From assembly GCF_001426185.1 (NCBI RefSeq), contig NZ_LMRP01000001.1, forward strand, positions 569,372-633,371: 64,000 nt of DNA. The letters are read 5' to 3'. Positions 53,782 through 60,501 of the stretch are shown here, piece after piece. The notes under the pieces are model-generated. The model did no database searches. It was given only the letters and a program-made list of their open reading frames with translations, and was not told where the DNA came from. A program made the position numbers and the translations under genes. This DNA comes from Rhodococcus sp. Leaf247 (lineage in GTDB: Bacteria; Actinomycetota; Actinomycetes; Mycobacteriales; Mycobacteriaceae). The number at the start of each line of letters is the position of its first letter. Position 1 is the first letter of the stretch.

Positions 53782-54387
53782 TCAGACCTGCTGCTCGGGT
53801 CGCCGCAGTCCTGCCAGCACGATGTCGACGGCGGCGTCGATCGTGGCGTCGTCGGGAAGCGTCCCGTACATCAGGGCGGGGCAGATGACGGCGCCCGAGA
53901 GCATCGTGACGGCGGCATCGAGATCGGGACCCGAGGCGATCTCGCCGATGATGCGCCGCGCGTACTGCTGACCGTCGTCGACGATGCGCTGCCGCATCCG
54001 TCCGATCTCGTCCACACTCGCTCCCCACTGCGCCATGGCCATGAGGATGCGGTCGAGGCGCCGCTCGCTGATGGCGCGACGGAATTCGTGCAGCTCCCCC
54101 ACCAGATCGGTCCGGGCATCGCCGGTCATCTCGTGGTGCGGCATGTCGCCGATCGCGTCCAGCGCCATGCCCAGGAGGTCGAACCGGGACGGCCAGTGCG
54201 TGTACAGCGTGGTCTTGGAATATCCCGCGACACGTGCCACGTGAGCGTGGGTGACGGCTTCCCACCCCTCGTTCGTGAGGACGTCCAGAGCTGCTCGTGA
54301 GACATCCGCGCGTGTACGCGAGACGCGTGCGTCCTCTGCCGCGATCTGATCGCCGATTCTGTTTCGAGCGTCCGGGGTACTACTCAT
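53782..54387 (-). CDS. TetR-family regulator divergent from the mycosporine operon
   Basis: A 201-residue TetR protein. The HTH is RAALDVLTNEGWEAVTHAHV and RVAGYSKTTLYTHWPSRFDLL; the C-terminus resembles the TetR_C_11/16 type. A strong GAGGAGGTGA precedes the ATG. It diverges from the HAD gene that begins the mycosporine operon, sharing a 209-nt region with an AGTACAG...CTGTACT inverted pair. It is the most likely local regulator of the cluster, by position. Confidence 0.88.
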   Translation of the reverse strand: MSSTPDARNRIGDQIAAEDARVSRTRADVSRAALDVLTNEGWEAVTHAHVARVAGYSKTTLYTHWPSRFDLLGMALDAIGDMPHHEMTGDARTDLVGELHEFRRAISERRLDRILMAMAQWGASVDEIGRMRQRIVDDGQQYARRIIGEIASGPDLDAAVTMLSGAVICPALMYGTLPDDATIDAAVDIVLAGLRRPEQQV

Positions 54388-54596
54388 CTGTTCGCGTCAC
54401 CTCCTCACTGTGAAGGTGAAGTTACGCGAGTTTCGAGTACAGACCTATTGAACGGCGAGTCCACTACTGTACTGTCGGGTAAGTTTCGTGCTCGGCAGGT
54501 CGATCGACCGGTGTCACAGCACCAGTGGCTGGCATCGCCTGATCTCGACATCTCTGCCGCCGTGCTCCCCCACCATGGTTCTCTGGAAGGACAACG
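54388..54596. promoter_or_regulatory. Divergent regulatory region of the mycosporine operon
   Basis: The region separates the TetR gene from the operon. AGTACAG (54436-54442) and CTGTACT (54467-54473) form an inverted pair 24 nt apart. GGAAGGA precedes the HAD start. I cannot fix -10/-35 elements. Confidence 0.45.
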
Positions 54597-55268
54597 ATGT
54601 CTGCAATCCTCTTCGGCTCCATCAGCACCCTCGCCGACACCTCCGAACTGCAACGACGAGCGTTCAACGAGGCATTCTCGACCCACGGTCTCGACTGGAA
54701 CTGGTCTCGTGAGGACTACATCTCGATGCTGGGATCCAACGGTGGCGCCAACCGGATCGAGGACTTCGCGACGGAGCGCGGCGTCGACGTCGACGCGTCC
54801 GCCGTGCACGCGACCAAGTCCGAAATTTTCCGATCGTTGATCGCCTCGACCGGCGTCTCACCGCGACCCGGCGTCGTCGACACCATCTCCGCAGCGAAGA
54901 AGAACGACGTCAAGGTCGGTTTCGTCACCACGACCTCCAAGGACAACGTGGCAGTGCTGCTCGAGGCGCTCGCCCCCGAGGTCTCCGCGGACTCCTTCGA
55001 CGTGATCGTCGATGCCGACGACGTCGAGCAGGGCAAGCCCGACCCGGCGTCCTACGCCTTCGCACTGGGCAAGCTCGGTGAATCCGCGGCATCGTGCGTC
55101 GCGGTCGAGGACAACGCCGGCGGCGTGAAGGCGGCCGTGGCGGCGGACATCACGTGCGTCGCGTTCCCGAACGAGAACACCACGGGCAGCGACTTCGCCG
55201 GCGCGGCCGAGACGGTCGAATCCCTGGACCCCGTCCGCCTCGAATCCTTGGCGACGGCTCGATCCTGA
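54597..55268 (+). CDS. HAD-fold protein lacking the catalytic aspartate, mycosporine operon
   Basis: A 223-residue HAD-IA (CbbY-like) protein. The N-terminal motif that should read FDxDGTL is FGSISTL (residues 6-12), so the nucleophile Asp is Gly7 and the general acid/base Asp is Ile9. Later motifs are intact: FVTTTSKDN (motif II), [12 protein letters not shown] (motif III Lys) and [15 protein letters not shown] (motif IV). The fold should be sound but the normal phosphoaspartate chemistry impossible. It may be a pseudoenzyme or use other chemistry. It heads the operon, 67 nt before mysA. Ribosome-binding site GGAAGGA. Confidence 0.85.
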
Positions 55269-55335
55269 GCCGAGAGTCCGACTCCACCTTTCCAGCGCCG
55301 AGCGCCCCGCTCGCGCACTGTTTTCCCCGGGAGAG

Positions 55336-56583
55336 ATGCAAGTGAGCAATCTTCAAGCAAGCGTGACGGCAGACGAGAGAACCTTCCATGTGGAGGGCTA
55401 CGAGAAGATCGAGTACGACCTGGTCTACGTCGACGGCGTCTTCGACGTCGACAACACCGAACTCGCCGACAGCTACACGCCCTACGGCCGATGCCTCATG
55501 GTCGTGGACGACAGCGTCCTCGAGCTGTACAACGACCGGATCACCGCGTACTTCGCCCATCACCACATCGATCTGACGGTCGTACCCGTCCAGATCAAGG
55601 AGACGGCCAAGTCGATCGAGACGTTCGAACGCATCGTCGGCAAGTTCGACGAGTTCGGACTCGTCCGCACCGAGCCGGTACTGGTCGTCGGCGGAGGCCT
55701 GACCACCGACGTGGCCGGTTTCGCCTGCGCGAGCTACCGACGCAACACCCCCTACATCCGCATCCCGACCACGCTCATCGGTCTGATCGACGCGAGCGTG
55801 AGCATCAAGGTCGCCGTCAACTACGGCAAGCACAAGAACCGCCTGGGCGCGTACCACGCGTCGCAGAAGGTGTTGCTGGACTTCAGTTTCCTCGCCACAT
55901 TGCCCGAGGATCAGGTTCGCAACGGCATGGCCGAACTGATCAAGATCTCGGTGGTGGGCAACCTCGAGATCTTCGAGATGCTCGAGAAGCACGGTGCCGA
56001 GTTGCTGACGACGCGGTTCGGACACCTCGACGGCACCGCCGAGCTGCGGGACATCGCGGACCGTCTGACGTACAAGGCGATCGCGACGATGCTGGAACTG
56101 GAAGCGCCCAATCTCCACGAGATCGACCTCGATCGCGTGATCGCTTTCGGCCACACCTGGAGCCCCACACTCGAATTGACTCCGCCCGCTCCGTTCTTCC
56201 ACGGGCACGCCATCAACATCGACATGGCCTTGTCGACGACGCTGGCCGAACAGCGCGGACACATCACCGCCGAGGACCGCGACCGAGTTCTCGGAGTCAT
56301 GAGCCGCATCGGTCTCGCACTCGACAGCAGCTATCTCACGGCCGACCTGCTGGCCGACGCCACGTCGTCCATTCTCAAGACTCGTGATGGGATTCTCCGC
56401 GCGGCAGTGCCGGCGCCCATCGGGTCGTGCGAATTCCTCAACGACGTGACCGTCGACGAGTTGGCGGACACGCTCACGCTGCACAAGAAGATCTGTCTCG
56501 AGCACGATCGGGACGGTGACGGCGTGGACATGTTCACCTCACCTGCGCCCGAGGCCGGAGTCGGTTCGTCGACCGATGCCTGA
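55336..56583 (+). CDS. mysA: Desmethyl-4-deoxygadusol synthase (sugar-phosphate cyclase, MysA)
   Basis: A 415-residue member of the 3-dehydroquinate synthase-like sugar-phosphate cyclases. It turns sedoheptulose 7-phosphate into desmethyl-4-deoxygadusol, the first step of mycosporine synthesis. [18 protein letters not shown] is nearly the cyanobacterial DDGS sequence. [20 protein letters not shown] binds [14 protein letters not shown] and [11 protein letters not shown] carry metal ligands, and [12 protein letters not shown] a further one. [10 protein letters not shown] has Ala270 where, as I recall, EEVS enzymes have Asp, supporting DDGS over valiolone synthase. The ATG at 55336 is preceded by GGGAGAG. 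It overlaps mysB by 8 nt. Confidence 0.93.
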
Positions 56584-57388
56584 TACGCACGAAACAGCGG
56601 GGCCACGTCCGGTCACTCCGACGACGATCGCGGCGCACGAGCTGACGGTTCTGTGCGACGAGATCGCGTCGGGCAGCAGCGGTGACGACATCGTCGCGCG
56701 TCTACGGCGTGCTCGCGATGTCGTCGCCGGTCTCGATCCGTACCTGGACCGGTGCACGTCCCCCGAAACCCCTGCTCTGGCCGACCTGGCTGCTCGCACC
56801 AGGTCGGCCGAGTGGGCCGGGAGCGCCCTGGAGCAGGAAATGCTGTCCGGCCACGTCGAGGGTCAGTTCCTCAAGTTCCTCGTCGGCATGACCGGTGCGG
56901 TGAACGTTCTCGAGATCGGCATGTTCACCGGCTACTCGGCGCTGGCGATGGCCGAGGAACTTCCGGCGGGTGGACGCGTGGTCGCCTGCGAGGTGGACCG
57001 GGCGGTCGCCGACTTCGCGCGGTCGTGCTTCGACGCCTCCCCCGTCGGCGATCGGATCGACATCGTCGTCGGGCCCGCGGCGGACACTCTTCTCTCCCTG
57101 GCGTCGGACGAGCGCACCTTCGACCTCGTCTTCATCGACGCCGACAAGGGCGGGTATCTGCACTACCTGAATGCGCTGCTCGACTCGACACTGCTGGCGC
57201 CCCGCGCTGTCATCGCCGTCGACAACACGCTGTTGCAGGGCGAGCCGTACCTCGACGAGTCCCGGTCGGTGAACGGTTCCGCGATCGCGGCGTTCAACGA
57301 CGCGGTCGCCGCGGATCCCCGCGTGGAGCAGGTCGTCCTACCGCTACGGGACGGACTGACTCTCATCCGTCGATCGACCGCATCATGA
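56576..57388 (+). CDS. mysB: 4-Deoxygadusol O-methyltransferase (MysB)
   Basis: A 270-residue class I SAM-dependent O-methyltransferase. It shares with cyanobacterial MysB the [16 protein letters not shown] start region, [20 protein letters not shown], the SAM motif [34 protein letters not shown] and [13 protein letters not shown]. It methylates desmethyl-4-deoxygadusol to 4-deoxygadusol. Its start overlaps mysA (8 nt) and its stop overlaps mysC (ATGA). Confidence 0.95.
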
Positions 57389-58680
57389 GGGGCACGACCG
57401 GCCGGTCCGTCACGGCGCTGGCGGTGCTGGCGCTCACTGCCCCACTCGATCTGATCGCCGTCGCCACCACGGTCGGGTCACGGCGCACCGCTCCGGGAAC
57501 TCCCGCCCGGGAACGGCGGACGGTGCTGATCAACGGCGGCAAGATGACCAAGTCGCTCCAACTCGCACGCTCCTTCCATGGGGCAGGACACCGCGTAGTC
57601 CTGGTGGAGTCGGCGAAGTACCGCTACACCGCTCATCGGTTCTCCCGAGCCGTCGACGTCTTCCACACCGTCCCCGAGGCGTCCGACGTCGGCTATGCCG
57701 AGGCTGTCGCCGAGATCGCCCGCCGCGAGAACGCAGACGTGTTCGTTCCCGTGTCGAGCCCGGCATCGAGCGTCCCCGACGCGGAGGTCGGCCGACTGCT
57801 CGCCGGGGTGTGCGACGTCATCCACGTGGACTCCGCCACGGTGGCGATGCTCGACGACAAGGTCCAGTTCTCGAAGACGGCCGAATCGCTGGGCCTCCGA
57901 GTTCCGCAGTCCCACCTGATCACCGATCGCCGACAACTGCTCGATTTCGACTTCCCGCCGGGGCGCCGCTTCATCCTCAAACGGATCGCCTACAACCCGG
58001 TCGGCCGCATGGACCTGACGCCGTTGTCCCGGGATACGCCGGATGCCAACGCGGAGTTCATCTCTCGGTTGTCCGTGTCGGCCGACGATCCCTGGATCCT
58101 GCAGGAGTTCGTGGACGGGCAGGAGTACTGCACTCACTCGACCGTCAGGAACGGACGGGTCCAGGTGTACGGGTGCTGCGAGTCCTCCGCGTTCCAGATC
58201 AACTACGCGATGGTGGACAAACCCGAAATCCGCTCCTGGGTAGAGCATTTCGTGGGCGAGCTCGGGCTCACAGGTCAGGTGTCCTTCGACTTCATCGAGG
58301 GCGCCGACGGTCACCCCTACGCCATCGAGTGCAACCCGCGCACACACTCGGCCATCACGATGTTCCACGATCACCCGGACGTCGCGGCGGCGTACCTCGA
58401 GGACGGCCATCCCGTCATCACTCCACTCCCGACCGCACGCCCCACCTACTGGCTCTATCACGAGGTCTGGCGGCTGCTCACCGAACCGGGACGCGTGCAC
58501 CGACTGCGGACCATCCTCGGTGGCAAGGATGCGGTCTTCACCCGCTGGGATCCGCTGCCGTACTTCATGCTCTACCACCTGCACCTGCCGTCATTGCTGT
58601 GGGCGAACCTGCGCAAGGGCGGGTCGTGGAGTCGAGTCGACGCCAACATCGGCAAACTCGTGGAGGCCGGCGGTGACTGA
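57385..58680 (+). CDS. mysC: ATP-grasp ligase forming mycosporine-glycine (MysC)
   Basis: A 431-residue ATP-grasp protein with an N-terminal hydrophobic segment (ALAVLALTAPLDLIAVATTV), as in cyanobacterial MysC. INGGKMTKSLQLARSFHGAG is strongly conserved. RRFILKRIAYNPVGRMDLTPL and WILQEFVDGQEYCTHSTV are ATP-grasp elements, and AIECNPRTHSAITMFHDHP is the metal-binding C-terminal block. It condenses 4-deoxygadusol with glycine to give mycosporine-glycine. Overlaps mysB by 4 nt and mysD by 8 nt. Confidence 0.95.
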   Translation: MRGTTGRSVTALAVLALTAPLDLIAVATTVGSRRTAPGTPARERRTVLINGGKMTKSLQLARSFHGAGHRVVLVESAKYRYTAHRFSRAVDVFHTVPEASDVGYAEAVAEIARRENADVFVPVSSPASSVPDAEVGRLLAGVCDVIHVDSATVAMLDDKVQFSKTAESLGLRVPQSHLITDRRQLLDFDFPPGRRFILKRIAYNPVGRMDLTPLSRDTPDANAEFISRLSVSADDPWILQEFVDGQEYCTHSTVRNGRVQVYGCCESSAFQINYAMVDKPEIRSWVEHFVGELGLTGQVSFDFIEGADGHPYAIECNPRTHSAITMFHDHPDVAAAYLEDGHPVITPLPTARPTYWLYHEVWRLLTEPGRVHRLRTILGGKDAVFTRWDPLPYFMLYHLHLPSLLWANLRKGGSWSRVDANIGKLVEAGGD

Positions 58681-59740
58681 CACGACGACTCCCGACACCT
58701 CGGGAACCCTGGCGATCCTGCACCTCGTCGGCTCGGCCGTCGACGACTTCCACTCGGATCTCTCGCGCGTCTACGCGCGGGACGCCCTGTCCTCCCTCGC
58801 CGACCCGGCGAAATACACCATGCACATCGCCTTGGTCTCCCCCGATTCGACATGGCGGTTCCCGGCCGACCTGTCCGACGCGGCCGTCGCCGCGGCGGAC
58901 GCGATGTCGGTGTCCCGAGCACTCGATCACATCGCCGACCTCGGTATCGACGCGGTGGTCCCGCAGATGTTCTGCCTTCCCGGCATGACCTCGTACCGCG
59001 CACTGTTCGACGTGCTTCGAATCCCTCTGCTGGGCAACAGAGCCGATGTCATGGCCCTCGCCGCCGACAAGGCCCGGACGCGGGCGATCGTCGCCGCCGC
59101 AGGGGTCGATGTACCCGAGGGCGTCGTGGTGACGGCGCGGAGCGACGGCGGCAGCCCTCTCTCCCTTCCGGTCGTCGTCAAGCCCGTCGACGCCGACAAT
59201 TCCGTCGGAGTGGCCCTTGCCCGGACTGCCGACGACTACGCGGCGGCACTCGTGGACGCCGGTCGTCATTCCTCGCGAGTGCTGGTCGAGACCTATGTCG
59301 ACCTCGGCCGCGAGGTGCGGTGCGGCATCATCGTCGTCGACGGGCAGGTCGTGTGCCTGCCGCTCGAGGAATACGCGGTCGACGCGACGAGCAAGCCGAT
59401 CCGCACCCGTGACGACAAACTCGCCCGTGACGACGACGGCGAACTGTACCTGGTGGCGAAGAACGCGACGCGGGCATGGATCGTCGCCGAGGACGATCCG
59501 GTGACCGAGCGGGTCTGGGAGATGGCACGAATCGCTCACCGCGCGTTGGGTTGTCGGCACTACAGCCTGTTCGATTTCCGCATCGACCCGGACGGTCGGC
59601 CGTGGTTCCTCGAGGCCGGCCTGTACTGCTCGTACGCCCGCGGCAGTGTCGTGGCCGTGATGGCCGCCGCTGCCGGTATCGGTCTGCCCGATCTGTTCGC
59701 GAGCGGCCTGAAGGAACTCGCCGAAGAAGGAGAACGCTGA
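58673..59740 (+). CDS. mysD: D-Ala-D-Ala ligase-like amino-acid ligase (MysD)
   Basis: A 355-residue D-Ala-D-Ala ligase-fold ATP-grasp protein, starting at GTG 58673, which overlaps the mysC stop. Landmarks are VVPQMFCLPGMTSYRALFD, PVVVKPVDADNSVGVALA, LVETYVDLGREVRCGIIVV and DFRIDPDGRPWFLEAG. In cyanobacteria MysD adds Ser, Thr or another amino acid to mycosporine-glycine, giving shinorine or porphyra-334. The attached amino acid here cannot be predicted. Its stop overlaps the ATG of the dioxygenase gene. Confidence 0.92.
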   Translation: MTDTTTPDTSGTLAILHLVGSAVDDFHSDLSRVYARDALSSLADPAKYTMHIALVSPDSTWRFPADLSDAAVAAADAMSVSRALDHIADLGIDAVVPQMFCLPGMTSYRALFDVLRIPLLGNRADVMALAADKARTRAIVAAAGVDVPEGVVVTARSDGGSPLSLPVVVKPVDADNSVGVALARTADDYAAALVDAGRHSSRVLVETYVDLGREVRCGIIVVDGQVVCLPLEEYAVDATSKPIRTRDDKLARDDDGELYLVAKNATRAWIVAEDDPVTERVWEMARIAHRALGCRHYSLFDFRIDPDGRPWFLEAGLYCSYARGSVVAVMAAAAGIGLPDLFASGLKELAEEGER

Positions 59741-60501
59741 TGCGCCATACCGTCATCGACCCTGTCGGAGTGCTCGTCGAGGACGCCGACGTCGAGTCGC
59801 TCGAACCCTCTCAGGTCGAGGAGATCCGCACTCTCGCCGCGGAGCACGGCGTCGTCGTGTTCCGCGAGCAGACCCTCGACGACGTGCGCTTCGCCGACTT
59901 CCTCCGAAGCCTCGGCGAGATCGTCTTCACCGAGGGTGAGACGCCCGTCGACGGACATTCCGATCTGAACGTCATCAGCAACGTCGGCCGCACCACGACT
60001 CCTCGATCCACTTTCCACGTGGACACGAGCTATGTCGCGAAGCCGCCGTCGTACACCGCTCTCCGCGCGGTGACGGTCCCCCGCGAGGGCGGGCAGACCG
60101 TCTTCAGCAACCAGTACCGCGCGTGGGAGACGCTGCCGGTCGACATGCGTTCCGATCTCGAGGACCGCACTCTGACCCACGTCGTCACCGGACTGGACCT
60201 GCCCGACGACGCCGAGTCGTCCGCGGAGCATCCTCTGGCGGCACTGCATCCCCTCTCGGGCCGCCGGTCGCTGTACATGTCCACCCCCAAGCGGTGCGCC
60301 TCGATCAGCGGGATGACCGCTGAGCAGACGGCCCGGACCGTGCAGTTCCTCTACGACCACTCCACCGCGGAGAGAAACGTCTATCGGCACACCTGGCAGC
60401 CCGGCGACGTCGTGCTGTGGGACAACCGGTGCGTCATGCACCGGGCGGACCATTCCGGGGTCGTCGGCGACAGGGTGATGCATCGCGGCATGGCCCGGTA
60501 G
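59740..60501 (+). CDS. TauD-type Fe(II)/2-oxoglutarate dioxygenase, mycosporine tailoring
   Basis: A 253-residue TauD/TfdA-family enzyme. The iron ligands are His93 and Asp95 in STFHVDTSYVAKPPSYTALR and His234 in DNRCVMHRAD. The following HR/R residues (about 248-253) would bind 2-oxoglutarate. The ATG overlaps the mysD stop (TGATG) and has GAAGGAG, so it belongs to the operon. Known MysH enzymes are PhyH-type oxygenases converting disubstituted mycosporines to palythine types; this one is from a different family. It is likely to hydroxylate, desaturate or dealkylate the mycosporine, which is inference from position. Confidence 0.88.
   Translation: MRHTVIDPVGVLVEDADVESLEPSQVEEIRTLAAEHGVVVFREQTLDDVRFADFLRSLGEIVFTEGETPVDGHSDLNVISNVGRTTTPRSTFHVDTSYVAKPPSYTALRAVTVPREGGQTVFSNQYRAWETLPVDMRSDLEDRTLTHVVTGLDLPDDAESSAEHPLAALHPLSGRRSLYMSTPKRCASISGMTAEQTARTVQFLYDHSTAERNVYRHTWQPGDVVLWDNRCVMHRADHSGVVGDRVMHRGMAR

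Follow-up and report, generated by a model that had tools for sequence, protein, structure and literature searches.

A predicted mycosporine-like amino acid operon in Rhodococcus sp. Leaf247 encoding a HAD-fold protein that lacks the motif I aspartates

The window, a stretch of 64,000 nucleotides of the Rhodococcus sp. Leaf247 genome, contains six genes between positions 54597 and 60501, for which reading of the sequence gives the order HAD-mysA-mysB-mysC-mysD-tauD (Table 1). The open reading frames and protein families bear out the initial annotation in that mysA, mysB, mysC and mysD form an array between a HAD-fold gene and a TauD gene, with a divergent TetR gene upstream. The array was also described as strictly overlapping, which is true from mysA to tauD only, where the successive overlaps are 8 nt (mysA/mysB), 4 nt (mysB/mysC), 8 nt (mysC/mysD, with mysD starting at a GTG codon) and 1 nt (mysD/tauD), but not of the HAD gene, which is separated from mysA by 67 nt. 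This gene set is found side by side repeatedly, both in the genus and outside it, so the operon is not a chance arrangement, and the synteny that was to be sought in other Rhodococcus genomes is indeed present. A pattern search ahead of the operon found no sigma-70 consensus promoter, and an Rfam search gave no match.

Table 1. Genes and a candidate regulatory site at the predicted mycosporine-like amino acid (MAA) locus of the window.
Feature	Coordinates	Strand	Basis
Divergent TetR-family regulator	53782..54387	-	TetR_N, TetR_C_11 domains
CACTACTGTACTG, near-palindrome, candidate TetR operator (inferred)	54462..54474	+	intergenic
HAD-fold protein, CbbY type, without motif I aspartates (putative pseudophosphatase)	54597..55268	+	HAD_2
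MysA, 2-demethyl-4-deoxygadusol synthase (DDGS) type	55336..56583	+	DHQ_synthase; bit scores; tree
MysB, O-methyltransferase	56576..57388	+	Methyltransf_3, 166.5 bits
MysC, ATP-grasp ligase	57385..58680	+	ATP-grasp_3 (weak); PRK06849
MysD, D-Ala-D-Ala-ligase-like ATP-grasp	58673..59740	+	Dala_Dala_lig_C, 65 bits
TauD/TfdA-type Fe(II)/2-oxoglutarate dioxygenase	59740..60501	+	TauD, 184.2 bits

MysA scores 570.8 bits against 5tpr and 278.8 bits against the EEVS ValA (4p53), and is 61-69% identical to the MysA proteins of 14 cyanobacterial clusters. It has the features of a DDGS-type enzyme and is not closest to ValA, and in a phylogenetic tree it lies in the DDGS clade beside cyanobacterial MysA. 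The closeness to cyanobacterial counterparts claimed earlier thus holds by both tree and sequence identity, and because MysA stands apart from six EEVS-like cyclases in that tree, the grouping with EEVS that had been named as evidence against an MAA operon is not seen. It is extremely improbable that the cluster makes an EEVS-derived compound of the gadusol or pseudosugar type instead of an MAA. MysA does belong to the same superfamily (as does EboD, another of its cyclases; PMC5133447), and six genomes of the genus also carry an EEVS-like cyclase elsewhere, one of which was tested and scores 391 bits to ValA 4p53 versus 267 to 5tpr. However, the score of the window's MysA to 5tpr is twice that to ValA, it lies within the DDGS clade, and MysB, MysC and MysD are all present, such that an EEVS-derived product is already largely refuted.

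The other members of the array also match an MAA cluster, with a MysB O-methyltransferase adjoining MysA, an ATP-grasp ligase in the MysC position, and a MysD for the second amino acid. MysB is 51-58% identical to the MysB-position proteins of cyanobacterial clusters (the match in locus L194 is only partial) and MysC is 49-55% identical to the MysC-position proteins of the 14 cyanobacterial clusters. Pfam support for MysC is weak (ATP-grasp_3, 24.6 bits with a cut-off of 23.2), and its score of 399.9 bits to PRK06849 is slightly below the cut-off of 406. MysD is 53-58% identical to MysD in six of the seven cyanobacterial loci with a match, and 36% identical in the seventh.

The steps catalyzed by MysA to MysD are established pathway knowledge, and the window's proteins would be expected to follow them: MysA would convert sedoheptulose 7-phosphate to 2-demethyl-4-deoxygadusol, which MysB would methylate to 4-deoxygadusol, to which MysC would add glycine to give mycosporine-glycine, and MysD would add a second amino acid to give a shinorine-type compound. 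By analogy with the operon of R. fascians, TauD may then hydroxylate an amino-acid carbon beside the nitrogen, and cleavage of the C-N bond would yield palythines. Residues H93, D95, H234 and R249, which we take to be the HxD...H iron triad and the 2-oxoglutarate arginine of a TauD/TfdA enzyme, are kept in all 95 distinct TauD proteins of at least 200 bits, a count that leaves out shortened or weak matches below that score (such as those of L057, L141 and L150). A TauD/TfdA-type dioxygenase, MysI, has been proposed for a palythine step in Nostoc sp. UHCC 0926 (PMC10510106), and it is likened to the window's TauD here by its published description. Across 244 cyanobacterial genomes, Chamaesiphon excepted, even the top TauD matches do not exceed 33% identity and 103 bits. 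The locus is thus predicted, by analogy on the product side, to be an operon for palythine-type MAAs flanked by a TetR gene.

The presence of HAD and TauD genes had been taken to make this variant possibly new in product, and this part of the MAA reading falls, although the complete mysABCD set and the DDGS-type MysA stand. As described in the GATOR-GC preprint (PMC11888242), both genes are conserved in actinobacterial MAA clusters, with Pseudonocardia alni as an example, and a 2018 meeting abstract cited there reports shinorine, palythine and palythine-serine from an operon of the same type in Rhodococcus fascians D188. Those clusters, as far as they are described there, have the same six biosynthetic gene types as the window with no visible difference in gene content, and the operon is one more genome for a known actinobacterial cluster type. 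Cyanobacterial mysABC(D/E) clusters share MysA, MysB and MysC with it but differ in that no HAD or TauD relative is present in the stretches read of 14 clusters (13 genomes), whereas the window has both; Chamaesiphon polymorphus, read in addition to these, has both. The earlier remark that mycosporines are known from only a few actinobacteria is outdated for some groups: within the window's genus, 31 of 37 genomes have a DDGS-type MysA, as do 20 of 249 sampled from the order, though only five of 396 sampled across the phylum. The useful part of the locus is the HAD protein, a type that annotation names a hydrolase.

The closest solved relative of the HAD protein by both sequence and fold is CbbY, a xylulose-1,5-bisphosphate phosphatase (PDB 4uar, 4uat). 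Its predicted model has a pLDDT of 95 and its best Foldseek match is CbbY D10N with xylulose-1,5-bisphosphate; a viral fold library returned distant HADs only. Motif I aligns without gaps on that of CbbY, which reads DVD, whereas the window's protein has GSI. Both aspartates are replaced in all 104 distinct HAD proteins (GSI in 102 and GSL in two; matches below 150 bits were left out of the residue counts), while N117, K147, E171 and D172 are present in all 104 and S114 in 99. We take the motif I aspartates to be the nucleophile and the acid/base, and these other residues to form motifs II, III and IV. Judged as a CbbY-type phosphatase, the protein thus has the fold, as modelled, and motifs II to IV, and lacks the DxD of motif I, an absence that was overlooked when the gene was correctly called HAD-fold. 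A Fisher test from the HAD and TauD residue-count step gave p = 0.0045, with kinship ignored. The pN/pS values of HAD, 0.24-0.49 in six pairs, are within the range of MysB, MysC, MysD and TauD.

The sequences argue strongly that the locus is an MAA operon whose HAD protein has lost the phosphatase mechanism. The protein would have a CbbY-type fold in which the nucleophilic aspartate and the general acid are gone and the rest of the pocket is kept, and the fold and pocket residues are what could be cited for an active phosphatase or other HAD enzyme, such as one that provides MysA with sedoheptulose phosphate or repairs this substrate. That role is highly unlikely, since the nucleophile and acid/base are missing in every one of the 104 proteins and the MysA reaction itself is described as already involving a dephosphorylation (PMC4426668). 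A literature search found no description in print of the HAD protein of MAA clusters as a degenerate CbbY-type fold, and nothing useful on dead HAD phosphatases. The preprint treats it as an enzyme of unvalidated role and asks what its enzymatic role is, and its main text nowhere uses the terms aspartate, catalytic, pseudoenzyme, active site or phosphatase (PMC11888242).

Comparison of the clusters bears on what the HAD protein may do. Among 52 Actinomycetota genomes found by MysA searches, 50 have HAD and 48 have a TauD match of at least 200 bits (including the TauD of G032, which is split over two frames), and in the stretches read TauD is never present without HAD. In 78 of 80 loci (80 of 107 confirmed) the gene immediately preceding MysA is HAD, some loci ending early at contig ends. 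That TauD is not seen without HAD, together with TauD also being present in the single cyanobacterium with HAD, could reflect a non-phosphatase step run by the remaining pocket residues, such as breakdown of the TauD-hydroxylated intermediate, and different chemistry via K147, E171 and D172 may occur. We consider such a step rather unlikely, since HAD is kept in five clusters without TauD (four genomes whose whole sequence gave no TauD match at E 1e-30, and G273, with none in the 18-kb locus) and the related palythine step in Nostoc is proposed to finish spontaneously (PMC10510106). These five clusters show that HAD is not tied to the palythine step only, and they rule it out as a dedicated TauD partner. 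Nor is it a requirement of MysA: only one of 14 cyanobacterial genomes with MysA has HAD (that one being the centre of the sample), so the MysABC reactions can in general do without it. The HAD protein is probably a non-catalytic accessory of the pathway that binds a phosphate or sugar phosphate, and no phosphatase. More tentatively, it could be a conserved pseudoenzyme, derived from a sugar-phosphate phosphatase of CbbY type in which the catalytic aspartates were lost once and the ligand pocket was retained, and recruited into MAA operons for binding, assembly or regulation, where it would couple sunscreen synthesis to the TauD step or to the supply of sugar phosphate. With the usual HAD phosphatase mechanism excluded by the sequences, tests of binding, of complex formation and of drop-outs become more informative than phosphatase assays.

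The dead HAD protein is in an MAA setting in all 80 loci read (80 of 107 confirmed), 79 of which have a MysA match (split in L139), the remaining one (L159) having MysC, MysD and TauD only. The locus scan used two patterns, one of which contains FGSIST and leans it to the GSI motif. This is not so for a full-length HAD search of 386 actinobacterial genomes, in which the seven strong matches (at least 213 bits) are all MAA-associated, the next best scores 113 bits, and all eight weaker matches listed keep an intact DVDGT. Among plasmid records, six of seven HAD relatives have DVDGT and one, on Roseobacter plasmid pROLI81 and annotated as a HAD-IA family hydrolase, has GSIGT, the same dead motif I. 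Its neighbours are genes for TrkA, TrkH and an L,D-transpeptidase; MAA genes are absent within 10 kb, and the remaining operon proteins have no match in the 20.6 kb read there (E 1e-3). The dead subfamily is thus not confined to MAA clusters, and exclusivity to them is ruled out.

Upstream of the HAD gene, a TetR relative of more than 120 bits is present within 1.5 kb in 34 of 81 loci, including that of the window, and the TetR protein is likely the local regulator of the operon. The candidate operator pattern CACTACTGTACTG has one match in the window where 0.02 are expected and one in the whole genome, but a reversed control pattern also has one genomic match, so that rarity alone is no argument. 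Of the 34 loci with TetR, 11 have its core TACTGTACTG in the 450 nt preceding the HAD gene, as against none of the 47 without, and the site is invariant in a six-row alignment representing about three lineages.

Among the various departures from the common organization, we note that three clusters lack mysB and two have a divergent cyclase in place of MysA; these are places to seek unusual MAAs.

The operon in the window is a real and complete MAA (mycosporine-like amino acid) operon of a type already published. The full mysABCD set claimed in the initial annotation is present, and the overlaps of 8, 4, 8 and 1 nt it described are confirmed by the coordinates. Pfam and NCBIfam assignments of the operon proteins are concordant. 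The 1 kb blocks of 54001-60000 have G+C contents of 62.9-68.0%, and the block starting at 54001 is the lowest in the window, where the maximum is 71.1%; the genome is 4.53 Mb.

Operon genes and control region in the window
Feature	Coordinates	Strand	Description
TetR gene	53782-54387	divergent from operon	reading frame
TACTGTACTG	54465-54474		in TetR-HAD gap, within near-palindrome CACTACTGTACTG
HAD	54597-55268	+	reading frame
mysA	55336-56583	+	reading frame
mysB	56576-57388	+	reading frame
mysC	57385-58680	+	reading frame
mysD	58673-59740	+	reading frame
tauD	59740-60501	+	reading frame

The closest solved structure to MysA is 5tpr (570.8 bits), the 2-demethyl-4-deoxygadusol synthase (DDGS) of Anabaena variabilis. 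The match of MysA to ValA (4p53), an EEVS (PMC4426668), scores 278.8 bits. Six genus genomes also encode another cyclase, about 40% identical, and the one tested behaves in the opposite manner (391 bits to 4p53, 267 to 5tpr). In a tree of 50 proteins MysA falls not with EEVS but inside a clade of 41 DDGS-type rows (97/89) that takes in every one of the 15 cyanobacterial MysA rows; outside it lie the six EEVS-like rows and AroB, which has a very long branch.

The HAD and TauD genes are reported in PMC11888242, in its available text, to show good conservation (over 60%) across MAA clusters and to occur in Actinomycetota, Pseudomonadota and Bacillota, not Cyanobacteriota, with the HAD role left open. 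The same source cites unpublished work (Osborn and Mahmud, 2018 meeting abstract) in which the R. fascians D188 operon yielded shinorine, palythine and palythine-serine in S. coelicolor M1152, and the TauD-type MysI of Nostoc has been named for a palythine step (PMC10510106). The variant is therefore known and its likely products reported, and the earlier suggestion that HAD and TauD make it possibly new in product is not sustained.

DDGS-type MysA is present in 31 of 37 genus genomes, including this one (33/61 in that search overall), in 20/249 genomes of the order sample, 5/396 of the phylum sample and 14/194 cyanobacteria, counting the sample centre Chamaesiphon. When the three actinobacterial searches were pooled, MysA was found in 52 different genomes (33 in the first, then 3 and 16 newly met). 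Of these, 50 have HAD and 48 have a TauD match of at least 200 bits; none of the 48 lacks HAD. Genomes G755 and G816 lack both, and G273 has HAD without TauD. Two further operons are otherwise matched throughout: the tauD of G031 (L057:2124-2603) is a 73.6-bit remnant with no HxD found and looks broken or shortened, and that of G032 (L056:8714-9456) is split across two frames. The bare mysABCD layout of G755 and G816 is that reportedly described for Actinosynnema mirum by Miyamoto in 2014.

The HAD protein is nearest in sequence to CbbY (137.8 bits), and its predicted model (pLDDT 95, pTM 0.91) best matches CbbY D10N with xylulose-1,5-bisphosphate (Foldseek E 4e-20). CbbY motif I, FDVDGT, is replaced by FGSIST in an ungapped alignment. 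Positions 7-8 are GS in 93/93 distinct proteins, and in 104/104 with further loci added; at position 9, 102 of them have I and two have L, and N117, K147, E171 and D172 are invariant in all 104. General decay of the operon is rejected as the cause of the motif loss, because TauD proteins from the same loci keep their four catalytic residues (95/95). HAD pN/pS is 0.24-0.49 in six pairs, within the range of MysB, MysC, MysD and TauD together (0.23-0.47) except for two slightly higher pairs, and above that of MysA (0.11-0.26). The oddity is testable, and literature searches, covering the main text of PMC11888242, found no paper reporting it.

The HAD aspartyl-phosphate route needs a nucleophile aspartate, and since this is absent such catalysis by the window HAD is impossible. 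The retained pocket residues, together with purifying selection, suggest that the protein binds a ligand; CbbY D10N is of the same fold type and, according to its crystal entry title, holds substrate despite a changed motif I. A pathway function is suggested by the position of the gene directly before mysA (78/80 loci) and by TauD depending on HAD but not the reverse. Five clusters that carry HAD but lack TauD argue against a role limited to the TauD step.

Roseobacter litoralis plasmid pROLI81 (L260:9992-10663) encodes a CbbY-like HAD whose motif I is dead in the same way (GSIGT), beside TrkA, TrkH and L,D-transpeptidase genes, with no match to other operon proteins in the 20.6 kb locus. In a midpoint-rooted tree a branch (100/99) separates this protein and 19 MAA HADs from 11 intact CbbY-type proteins, of which two have genes adjoining Calvin-cycle genes. 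The simplest reading of these sequences is that motif I would have been lost once, either before the association with MAA genes arose or apart from it.

Of the 34 loci with a TetR gene, 11 have the TACTGTACTG element upstream of HAD and 23 lack it; none of the 47 loci without a TetR gene has it, some loci being short upstream. This fits a candidate TetR operator in some family members.

Several clusters depart from this organization. The order HAD-mysA-mysC-mysD-tauD is found in two Mycobacterium MAGs and in a further genome from the window's family (L113:10714-13308, L130:5523-8092, L245:8932-11510); mysB is absent, because the gap between the mysA and mysC matches is only ~70-90 nt, and no MysB-like gene over 77 bits was found elsewhere in these genomes. 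These clusters may make O-desmethyl MAAs. At L165:4692-11289 and L166:5015-10991, HAD, MysB, MysC, MysD and TauD occur with a divergent cyclase (~39% identical; 237 and 254 bits) replacing MysA; the two are sister to the DDGS clade, and that of L165 has ~200 extra N-terminal residues with no Pfam match. Microlunatus flavus (L159:10001-13919) has HAD, TauD, MysC and MysD, with no MysA or MysB match in the 20.6 kb locus. HAD occurs in just one of the 194 cyanobacterial genomes, and Chamaesiphon polymorphus CCALA 037 (L147/L207) encodes HAD, TauD, MysA and MysB consecutively, which disagrees with what the available text of PMC11888242 states for Cyanobacteriota; its HAD and TauD may point to transfer between phyla.
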